Part shown: one piece after another, positions 11,551 to 63,397 of the stretch | Layout: each line of letters starts with the position of its first letter | How positions within the stretch are numbered: position 1 is the stretch's first letter | Notes under the pieces: generated by a model | The model's database searches: none | The model's input: only the letters and a program-made list of their open reading frames with translations | What the model was told of the DNA's origin: nothing | Program-made: the position numbers and the translations under genes | NCBI RefSeq assembly: GCF_002933955.1 | Contig: NZ_BEWW01000243.1 | Span: 1-64,000, forward strand | DNA from: Prevotella sp. MGM2 | Lineage (GTDB): Bacteria > Bacteroidota > Bacteroidia > Bacteroidales > Bacteroidaceae | Direction: 5' to 3' | Length of the DNA stretch: 64,000 nt

Positions 11551-11820
11551 ATTTTAACACTATTTGCTTTTAGCCGAAAAAAATCGTATATTTGCAATGG
11601 CGAAGCGGACTGTTAACAAAAACTGTTCGCTTTTGTTGTCTTTAACGGCAATACAGAGATATTTTCCATAGAAAAAGTCCGTATTATAATTTAAATTCGC
11701 CGTATTGCTGTTAAAATTCCAAGTAATCTTTTTCTTTCCGAACTTCTTCCAACTCTTTTTATATGGTTTATGAATATGTAAATGCTCATTGGAAATGTAA
11801 CAGAAAGTTAAATATGTTAA
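11551..11820 (+). repeat. dispersed promoter-hairpin element, copy A
   Basis: First of seven copies. It begins TTTTAACACTATTTGC, with TTTG at 11563-11566, a 20 nt spacer and TATATTTG at 11587-11594. An imperfect hairpin follows at 11603-11632 and ends in CGCTTTTG. Then come two tandem CCGTATT-type units (about 11680-11725) ending in CCAAGTA, and the terminal block GAAATGTAACAGAAAGTTAA to 11820. It fills much of the 650 bp gap between divergent valS and pgk; the rest of that gap holds the promoters of those genes. Confidence 0.85.
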
Positions 11821-19898: not shown

Positions 19899-20162
19899 TT
19901 AACATATTTAACCTTTGGTTACATTTTGAAGTGTTAATACATACATTCTAAATGCTGATTAGGAAAAAGTCCGTATCGAAATTTTAACACGAGTACTTGA
20001 ATTTTTAATTCCAATACGGATAATTCATCACAAAAATACATAGGAAAACTACTTGATTATACTTGAAAAACAGGCAAAAAGCGAGACATCCAATAAGAAT
20101 GTCCCGCTTCGCTATTACAAATATACAACTTTTTTCCGTCGAAACCAAATAGTGTTAAAATT
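19899..20162 (-). repeat. dispersed promoter-hairpin element, copy B
   Basis: Reverse-strand copy. Its -33 box complement CAAA is at 20146-20149 and its -7 box complement CAAATATA at 20118-20125, 20 nt apart. The hairpin at 20079-20109 (GCGGGACATTC pairing with GGATGTCTCGC, using wobbles) is followed by TTTTTGCC on that strand. A CCGTATTGGAATTAAAAATT block lies at about 19995-20019, and the distal end TTAACATATTTAACC is at 19899-19913. It occupies the gap between divergent GNAT and the small secreted protein gene; nothing else was recognised in that gap apart from the two promoters. Confidence 0.85.
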
Positions 20163-28510: not shown

Positions 28511-28770
28511 TACTTTAACACTTCTTGCTTTTACCAAAAAAATGTCGTATACTTGTATAGTATTGTAGGGAGGTTCATCGAACTTCCCTTTTTAATATAA
28601 TGAAACGTGCAATTAAGGGGAGGAAAGTCTGTATTGCCGTAAAAAATCCAAGTATTCTAATTTTTACAAGCCGTATTCTTGTTTTTTTGCTCCCTAATAT
28701 CTGAATAAGAAGATATATCTATACCGTTTTTTACAAGTTTGTTTTACCAACAAAGGTTAAAAGTGTTAAA
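28511..28770 (+). repeat. dispersed promoter-hairpin element, copy C
   Basis: Forward copy, antisense to both flanking genes. TTG at 28525-28527 and TATACTTG at 28548-28555 are 20 nt apart. The hairpin at 28567-28589 (AGGGAGGTTC / GAACTTCCCT with one wobble) is followed directly by TTTTT, a textbook terminator. GTATTGCCGTAAAAAATCCA lies at 28631-28650 and the distal AAAGGTTAAAAGTGTTAA ends at about 28770. This is the least conserved full-length promoter block. It accounts for most of the 494 bp gap between DUF4199 and the sugar kinase. Confidence 0.8.
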
Positions 28771-36415: not shown

Positions 36416-36697
36416 TTAACATATTTAACTTTCATACACATTAAACAGGAAAATTCTAGCACAAAACAACGAATAGATTTCACAAAAATAACTTTCAAAA
36501 GAAAAACATTACTTGAATTTTTAATTGCAATACAGGGAATTTAAATTGTAATACGGACTTTTTATCCGCATATTCCAAAGAAAAAACAAAGTTTTTACAA
36601 AGAAATAACAAAAAAAGCGGACAGTTATTTGTTAACCGTCCGCTTCGCTAATGCAAATATACAACATTTTTCAGCCAAAAGCAAATAGTGTTAAAAT
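36416..36697 (-). repeat. dispersed promoter-hairpin element, copy D
   Basis: Reverse copy, one of the best conserved. CAAA at 36682-36685 and CAAATATA at 36654-36661 (20 nt apart) are the complements of the -33 and -7 boxes. The hairpin at 36615-36645 (GCGGACGGTTA / TAACTGTCCGC) is followed on that strand by TTTTTTTG. Two direct CCGTATTAC/CTGTATTGC units lie at about 36515-36556, and the distal end TTAACATATTTAAC at 36416-36429. It lies in the 745 bp gap between divergent mlaE-like and lon. Confidence 0.88.
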
Positions 36698-45406: not shown

Positions 45407-45568
45407 GGTATTTTATTTTTATCCCTTACAACAATTGATGGTAAACCCACCACCAACAGCCAAACAAAGACACATTGAATAAAACATCTGTATTGCAACC
45501 CAACAACCGGCTCTACAGAAGCAAACTGTTATATTCAAGAATTTCTTCTCTCTATTCATTCAAAAAAT

Positions 45569-45735
45569 ACTTGGATTTTAAATTGCAATACGGGGATTTA
45601 TTATGAAAACATGCAGAAAAAAACTGTTCTTATTGCTGATAAACACGCAAAAAGCGAAGCATTTCTAAAGAATGCTCCGCTCCGCTGTTACAAAGATAAT
45701 GAATTATTCCATCAAATGCAAGAAATGTTAAAAAG
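45569..45735 (-). repeat. dispersed promoter-hairpin element, copy E (degenerate)
   Basis: Reverse copy with a weaker promoter: CAA at 45719-45721 and CAAAGATA at 45691-45698, still about 20 nt apart when aligned to the other copies. The hairpin at 45653-45681 (GCGGAGCATTC / GAAATGCTTCGC) is followed on that strand by TTTTTGCG. The CCGTATTGCAATTTAAAATC block is at 45572-45591. The TTAACATATTTAAC end was not found, so the element looks truncated or eroded. It lies in the 610 bp gap between divergent GH20 and VOC genes, whose remainder holds the two promoters. Confidence 0.7.
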
Positions 45736-54206: not shown

Positions 54207-54467
54207 TTTTTAACACTATTTGCTTTTGGCAGAAAAATGTCGTATATTTGCAGAGCTAAAGCAGGCAGTTCATGAAGAACTGCCTGCTTTAGCTATATAT
54301 TCAGGTATTTTCCGGACAAAAAGAACCTGAATTAAAGTATAAAAAAGCCGTATTGCTGTAAAAAATCCAAGTAACCTTTTTCAAATTATCTTTATTTCCG
54401 AATGATAGAGCGCTATTTTATGGCATAAAAACCATCCCGAAATGTAACTGAACGTTAAATATGTTAA
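54207..54467 (+). repeat. dispersed promoter-hairpin element, copy F
   Basis: Forward copy with a consensus promoter block: TTTG at 54219-54222, 20 nt, TATATTTG at 54243-54250. The hairpin at 54254-54294 has perfect 18 bp arms (AGCTAAAGCAGGCAGTTC) and a 5 nt loop. CCGTATTGCTGTAAAAAATC lies at 54348-54367 and AATGTAACTGAACGTTAA to 54467 closes it. It begins 10 nt after the GNAT stop codon, between two codirectional genes; after it the clpC promoter follows. Confidence 0.88.
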
Positions 54468-63131: not shown

Positions 63132-63397
63132 TTAACATTTTTAACCTTTGATTACATTTTAATGGCGTTGTATTGTCTCTGTTCTGGAATGTGACACGAC
63201 ACGAATAAGGATAATTCGAAAAAGGTTACTTGGAATTTTTACGGCAATACTGACTTTTCATCAGCCAAATTCAGGCTTTTTTCGCTTGAAAAACATTTGA
63301 ATATGTATAAAATTAGGCAGTTCTGAAAGAACTGCCTAATTTGTGTCTGCAAATATACAACATTTTCCGGCAAAAAGCAAATTGTGTTAAAATTCAG
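63132..63397 (-). repeat. dispersed promoter-hairpin element, copy G
   Basis: Reverse copy. CAAA at 63378-63381 and CAAATATA at 63350-63357 (20 nt apart) are the complements of the -33 and -7 boxes. The hairpin at 63311-63341 is perfect (AATTAGGCAGTTCT arms, 3 nt loop) and on that strand ends in AATTTTATAC. GTATTGCCGTAAAAATTCC lies at about 63231-63249, and the distal TTAACATTTTTAACC at 63132-63146. It fills half of the 573 bp gap between lysA and the RND adaptor gene; the rest shows only the adaptor promoter. Confidence 0.88.

Follow-up and report, generated by a model that had tools for sequence, protein, structure and literature searches.

The promoter-into-hairpin feature analysed here is real, and it is larger and more widespread than the sequence-only reading had seen. 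That reading, which described a promoter transcribing straight into a hairpin, was borne out in this respect, but it missed the larger unit: judged from aligned copies, the site is the left ~90 bp of a high-copy dispersed repeat of ~262 bp, with 21-nt units and a defined right end. Our best explanation, to which we give somewhat better than an even chance, is that the site forms the left end of a dispersed and apparently non-autonomous repeat, MITE-like or BrickBuilt-like in kind, whose promoter would be muffled by its own terminator to give predicted RNAs of ~40 nt.

The window, that is, the whole stretch analysed, comprises 64,000 nt of contig NZ_BEWW01000243.1, and its host genome (coded G000; 2.88 Mb) belongs to the same genus as Prevotellamassilia timonensis. 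When the whole window was scanned with the first 45 nt of copy F as query and up to 18 mismatches allowed, the sole matches were the seven copies (A-G, on both strands) that the sequence-only reading had listed, at the same places (Table 1). The copies in the window lie 8.2-9.2 kb apart, which is strikingly even, and the next one (G000:C243:70775) follows 7.4 kb on; this is perhaps chance. Regular spacing across the genome was rejected because 36 intervals measured on the other G000 contigs fetched vary between 3.4 and 27.9 kb and because the first 106.8 kb of contig C291 has no match to the left-end profile at an E-value of 0.001.

Table 1. Copies of the repeat in the window and component parts of copy F.
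Feature	Coordinates	Strand	Remarks
Copy A	11552..11820	+	269 bp; hairpin ~11597-11639
Copy B	19899..20160	-	262 bp; hairpin ~20069-20116
Copy C	28513..28769	+	257 bp, divergent (CTTG / TATACTTG); hairpin ~28560-28598
Copy D	36416..36696	-	281 bp; hairpin ~36606-36650
Copy E	45562..45733	-	right end lost or degenerate; hairpin ~45642-45689
Copy F, whole element	54208..54467	+	260 bp; ends from aligned copies, the common sequence stopping at TTTTAACA (left) and GTTAAATATGTTAA (right)
Copy G	63132..63392	-	261 bp; hairpin ~63310-63342
Copy F left end TTTTAACA	54208..54215	+	near-invariant across 52 G000 copies
Copy F -33 box TTTG	54219..54222	+	TTG invariant in 56 aligned copies from four species
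Copy F -7 box TATATTTG	54243..54250	+	20 nt past the -33 box
Copy F terminator-like hairpin	54254..54294	+	18-bp stem, 5-nt loop, at the predicted +1; poor T-tract; fold -33.2 kcal/mol; covariation across copies
Copy F 21-nt units ('bricks'), around CCGTATTGCTGTAAAAAATCCAAGTA	54339..54396	+	shared block; lag-21 periodicity over 52 G000 copies
Copy F right end GTTAAATATGTTAA	54454..54467	+	from right-end alignment; one base off the longer form AARGTTAAAWATGTTAAW

All seven copies follow one plan, in which TTG/TTTG is followed after 20 nt by a TANNTTTG-type box and directly afterwards by the hairpin. The -33 box reads TTTG in five of them and CTTG in C and E, and the spacer, which had been described as invariant, is indeed 20 nt in 7/7, taking the TTG of the -33 box and the TA of the -7 box as its limits. 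For the strict pattern TTTG-N20-TANNTTTG the window yields seven matches, five of them being these copies, as against 0.62 expected, and none of 100 shuffles reaches seven. Beyond the window, leaving out two copies in each genome that are cut by contig ends, a 20-nt spacer occurs in 60 of the 63 G000 copies that were scored (the 60 include the doubtful match C284:6777; one other has 19 nt and two lack clean boxes) and in 23/23 copies of the congeneric genome G031. The accessible part of PMC7366714 describes sigma-ABfr promoters as having boxes centred at -7 and -33 with a spacer of variable length. The geometry of the repeat is of this type, and a length of 20 nt is therefore unremarkable; what characterises the repeat family is that this length stays constant. 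Elsewhere in the G000 sequence that was fetched, TTTG-N18..21-TANNTTTG occurs at 36 sites, none of which has a hairpin and Ts within the next 60 nt; 58 of 61 elements do, the profile used to pick them covering the beginning of the hairpin.

In G000 copies the hairpin, read by eye, is most often GCGGGACTTTCC...GGAAAGTCCCGC followed by Ts, and it folds at -12 kcal/mol or below in 59/61 copies, as it does in 21/21 copies from G031. Its reported position at about the predicted +1 agrees with the folded stems, which start 2-8 nt past the -7 box in the window copies, and the predicted RNA is therefore ~40-45 nt long. The division of the T-tracts into good (A-E) and poor (F and G) likewise stands: the 18-bp stem of copy F swallows its own Ts and is followed by ATATATTC, and copy G carries AATTTTAT in place of a good T-tract. 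These weak tracts in F and G, together with the promoters that other small dispersed elements are said to carry in the consulted part of PMC10969869, would suit a mobile promoter from which, on failed termination, transcription reads through to activate neighbouring genes. TTTT nevertheless follows the hairpin region in 58/61 folded G000 copies, orientation with respect to the upstream gene is unbiased in that genome (same in 30, opposite in 32, unknown in 3), and no TANNTTTG was found at a fixed distance beyond either the left or the right end, as an outward promoter would have it; we regard this alternative as very improbable.

The pairing of the stem is one argument for the self-terminating arrangement. 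In alignment A2, whose G000 rows were found via sequence profiles (one of which includes the first part of the stem) and not via pairing, and from which a doubtful row lacking a clear hairpin had been removed, 80.5% of cells pair, all 13 pairs change on both sides, and none of 500 shuffles reaches any of the five measures observed; when the partner is slid by one column, pairing falls to 52-60%. The 17 copies of G215, a genome of another genus, have 187/187 cells paired, a percentage favoured by their having been found through covariance model R1 (see below). Seven of their 11 pairs are compensated, which 0/500 shuffles match, and the number of further pair types is not above that in shuffles (334/500). 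A search of Rfam release 15 gave two window matches at E-values up to 1, neither of them at a copy; Rfam has no matching model for the repeat. As far as these alignments go, the stem covaries, and promoter and terminator are kept while the sequence is replaced between species, which is why a self-terminating transcription unit appears to be the most economical reading. Pairing of the hairpin with the 21-nt units was considered and rejected, since common words are about equally long with the units of other species. A slower rate of evolution in this module was likewise considered: in four locus pairs, promoter and hairpin show nine substitutions over 328 aligned sites and the upstream flank 37 over 765, figures that are too few to use, with one pair adding nothing to the flank.

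The layout of the complete element comes from the alignment of 52 G000 copies with both ends, and it runs from TTTTAACA through the promoter, the terminator-like hairpin and the 21-nt tandem units to the right end GTTAAANATGTTAA. A repeat search located the further conserved blocks 3' of the copies, where the hairpin is followed by a spacer, a few 21-nt units (e.g. CCCCGTATTGCAATTTAAATT and CCAAGTATTCGTGTTAAAATT) and the right end AARGTTAAAWATGTTAA. A 20-base pattern with three mismatches allowed finds 140 left ends in G000 (60+80; reversed control, 1), and a second, different exact pattern also gives 140. The right-end form AARGTTAAAWATGTTAAW has 118 exact matches in the genome (reversed control, 0), and the left-end profile has 65 matches at an E-value of 0.001 in the 716 kb of G000 that were fetched; the doubtful one mentioned above, which lacks a clear terminator hairpin, was excluded from later alignments. 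Among 51 copies (one more having been dropped for a misplaced right end), 38 measure 260-262 bp, seven 280-283 bp, one 241 bp and five others 235-269 bp, the longer (280-283 bp) and shorter (241 bp) copies differing by about one 21-nt unit. Length is held despite a median pairwise identity of only 72.5%. The closest pair, with 95.4% identity, lies 5 kb apart on one contig and may therefore be a local copy. At least 22 left ends, among the 100 matches listed of 140, fall within 300 nt of the start of a contig. Probably the repeat interrupts the assembly and accounts for part of the fragmentation of this genome, which is in 329 contigs.

The region after the hairpin, which lies outside R1, has a 21- or 22-nt period in 13/13 genomes examined, with unrelated sequences and weakly in some of them (52 sequences from G000, 21 from G031, 17 from G215, 12 from G017 and 1-3 from the others, one of the two from G070 being a gene leader). 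The top self-match lag is 21 in 11 genomes, 22 in G215 and 42 in G066, which is represented by one sequence and where 21 ranks third. At lags 21-22, 0/200 shuffles reach the observed value in 12 of the 13 genomes and 2/200 do so in G079; over all lags the signal is weaker in G029 (18/200 shuffles), G079 (16) and G076 (2). No 21-nt period peak appears in the 36 control promoters. Arrays and ends also occur by themselves: the G000 right-end match C259:26137 has neither promoter nor hairpin, and stand-alone 21-nt arrays were read by eye at 8/9 loci of G015 and 3/4 of G076. Palindromic 21-nt arrays without the promoter part are seen at intergenic sites in L150-L162 (G015) and L163-L169 (G076).

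A period of two helical turns in the 13 genomes, in combination with ends rich in GTTAA/TTAAC, is what might be expected if a recombinase or nucleoid protein recognised hairpin and array at the DNA level and the boxes that resemble a promoter were instead binding motifs. This is a decidedly unlikely account in our view: the boxes fit the sigma-ABfr consensus (PMC7366714, in the part consulted), the T-tract follows the stem on one side, and similar sequences lie upstream of ORFs in phage contigs. By raw counts, phage contigs match the promoter pattern of the left end at 11 places; at eight of these an ORF of at least 40 aa starts within 75 nt, three of the eight having one common sequence, and at a ninth one starts at 147 nt. 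The pattern before these ORFs may be an extended strong promoter type. Phage contigs L108, L110, L111, L113-L116 and L118 carry TTTTAACA....TTG...TAT.TTTG.A upstream of ORFs.

Strict patterns match only G000 and G031 among 58 genomes of the genus, and the latter has its own subfamily (26 exact pattern matches; mostly 255-256 bp; median identity 88.4%). Of 399 family genomes, 21 have any right end and only these two have more than two. Three of the rare-match loci (one in G015, two in G076) are elements and others are a different block. When the sequence fetched for G015 and G076, along with some control loci, was searched with a right-end profile, five distinct places emerged, and all five elements found in this way carry promoter boxes and hairpin in otherwise unrelated sequence, one of them with a 19-nt spacer and a weak T-tract. 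The layout itself hence seems to matter, with the same plan and different sequences in related species. Covariance model R1 was built from 56 sequences: 45 from G000 (the first 46 of 60 available, with the doubtful one dropped) plus two divergent ones, 4 of 20 from G031, three from G015 and two from G076. It has at least eight matches (E-value 0.01) in 13/58 genus genomes, with counts of at least 75 in G000 and in G017, 51 in G079, 41 in G069, 40 in G070, 29 in G031, 25 in G029, 23 in G001, 19 in G003 and in G066, 14 in G036, 9 in G027 and 8 in G013. At least one match occurs in 52/58, many of the weak ones being possibly chance or other hairpins. At an E-value of 0.0001, 40 of 249 family genomes contain a match, and G215 has at least 17. 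Copies outside G000, G031, G015 and G076 were found by R1 and hence chosen partly for promoter and hairpin; in those that were read, the hairpin and the downstream units are characteristic of the species concerned, with the close relatives G069 and G079 alike. R1 also matches the gene leaders L203:10613 and L184:1501, in which boxes and hairpin precede by ~90 nt a frame of 154-155 aa, alike in two genomes.

Two kinds of sequence were noticed alongside these searches. Loci L211, L212 and L238, from two genomes of another genus, have a promoter-into-hairpin unit (GGGGTTCTCTTACGAAGAGA...), L212 and L238 being the same place, and in L211 and L212 a second hairpin copy lies nearby. Another conserved block, present in several genera (L131, L135, L137, L138, L139, L141, L142, L145, L147 and L148), begins with AAAGTTAAAAATGTTAA, contains TTTCTACCGTTTAA in most, and in 7/10 loci runs into a frame with LTSITIPNSVTSIG-type repeats.

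Under the muffled-promoter explanation, RNA polymerase with the main Bacteroidota sigma factor would start at or just before the hairpin, and the resulting RNA of ~40-45 nt, nearly all of it terminator stem, would end at the T-tract. Transcription would seldom read into the 21-nt units or a neighbouring gene, and copies with poor T-tracts, such as F and G, may leak. The element probably needs its promoter, by way of open DNA or of the tiny RNA, to propagate or maintain itself, and owing to the terminator the host would tolerate each copy. The 21-nt units look like sites for proteins, set in phase at two helical turns. This seems the simplest account of promoter and terminator both being kept adjacent as sequences drift. 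Our confidence in it is slightly lower because R1 also matches gene leaders and because G031 copies overlap crude ORFs. More tentatively, and with doubt clearly outweighing belief, the repeat could represent a widespread class of Bacteroidales chromosomal element selected for layout and not for sequence, in which a promoter firing into its own terminator and a two-helical-turn array, in up to ~140 or more copies per genome, would have aborted transcription or a swarm of ~40-nt hairpin RNAs as their function. If true, the repeat would constitute a dispersed transcription unit of a new kind, which might for instance mark supercoiling or the nucleoid locally, or titrate an RNA-binding protein. 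That about a dozen species retain one plan of promoter, terminator and 21-nt units, with the sequence replaced, amounts to a natural experiment on what selection acts on in small bacterial elements. Should the repeat be transcribed, ~140 tiny RNA units would lie in one gut-bacterial genome.

We found no description of this element in the open-access literature, the search not having covered subscription papers. On present comparisons it is closest in kind to the BrickBuilt MITE of Porphyromonas gingivalis, which in the available portion of PMC4596501 likewise consists of a leader, a short tandem array and a tail, lies between genes and exists in many non-identical copies, with 3 of 19 arrays lacking leader and tail much as the G015 and G076 arrays do here. 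Leader, array and tail located between genes are all found in G000, a likeness of layout, and size (within 50-1000 bp) and copy number are those of a MITE. The two differ in unit length (23 nt in BrickBuilt, 21 or 22 nt here), in their ends (TIR GAGACCTTTGCA / TGCAAAGGTCTC in Table 2 of PMC4596501, TTTTAACA / GTTAAANATGTTAA in G000) and in number and size (19 copies of 84-991 nt against ~140 of nearly fixed length). BrickBuilt promoter activity has been measured in E. coli reporters and terminators are predicted around 10 of 19 copies, but a terminator right at the promoter start site, as seen here, is not described for it in that portion of the source. The pneumococcal SPRITE, BOX and RUP are also dispersed intergenic repeats, likened here by description, and SPRITE is named for its Rho-independent-terminator-like form; they belong to another phylum, and the excerpted text of PMC10969869 does not mention a promoter feeding a terminator. 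From the same text, the Correia elements of Neisseria are similarly small and dispersed with built-in promoters, but these are reported to act on neighbouring genes, whereas here the promoter runs straight into the hairpin. The intergenic sRNA genes of Bacteroides thetaiotaomicron pair a sigma-ABfr promoter with a Rho-independent terminator (PMC7366714, part consulted), a combination recognised in our repeat on motifs and folds only; their transcripts have been measured, whereas a dispersed repeat with a very short RNA is predicted here from sequence alone.

With regard to placement and mobility, 49/65 G000 copies overlap no ORF of at least 80 aa and 16/25 G031 copies do overlap one, ORF calls being crude in both cases. 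The flanks of G000 copies have nothing in common beyond weak preferences adjoining the ends; in G031 shared sequence extends further outward on both sides, and one pair has a common left flank (0.96). The ends mirror each other over ~7 nt (TTTAACA / TGTTAAA), imperfectly beyond, and are thereby candidate terminal inverted repeats. Over 21,609 offset-length combinations, target-site duplications show no consistent excess over mismatched flank pairs, and no autonomous partner or longer version was found among six unpaired right and three unpaired left ends in the 716 kb of G000. A REP/RAYT identity was rejected because the Y1 transposase (PF01797) has no match in G000, which is 94% complete; it is present in 8 of 17 genomes searched, including G031. 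Carriage by phages or plasmids was rejected on the absence of copy F matches in 50,697 phage and 72,556 plasmid records. Of 15 G079 loci, four have a counterpart, at 94-98% identity, in fetched G069 sequence, and the element is present in both relatives at 4/4; hence, no insertion was caught. Mobility is favoured by the number of G000 copies in unrelated surroundings and by the patchy distribution, while the lack of consistent target duplication, the lack of a transposase partner in the sequence searched and the four shared loci point against it; spread within a species followed by stable inheritance would be our preferred course. The shared loci, together with high copy number and selection on structure without sequence, would also agree with a host-serving family of multicopy small-RNA genes, whose ~40-nt hairpin RNAs would act in trans (e.g. 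by occupying an RNA-binding protein, an RNase or RNA polymerase) and in which structure and amount would matter and sequence would not. Counts from 0 to at least 75 among species of one genus are nonetheless hard to square with a needed host function, and we deem this possibility unlikely. A small MITE-like insert with ends resembling GAGGGTGTGTCAAA was also observed at L253:1166-1354, and it is absent from the same place in L267.
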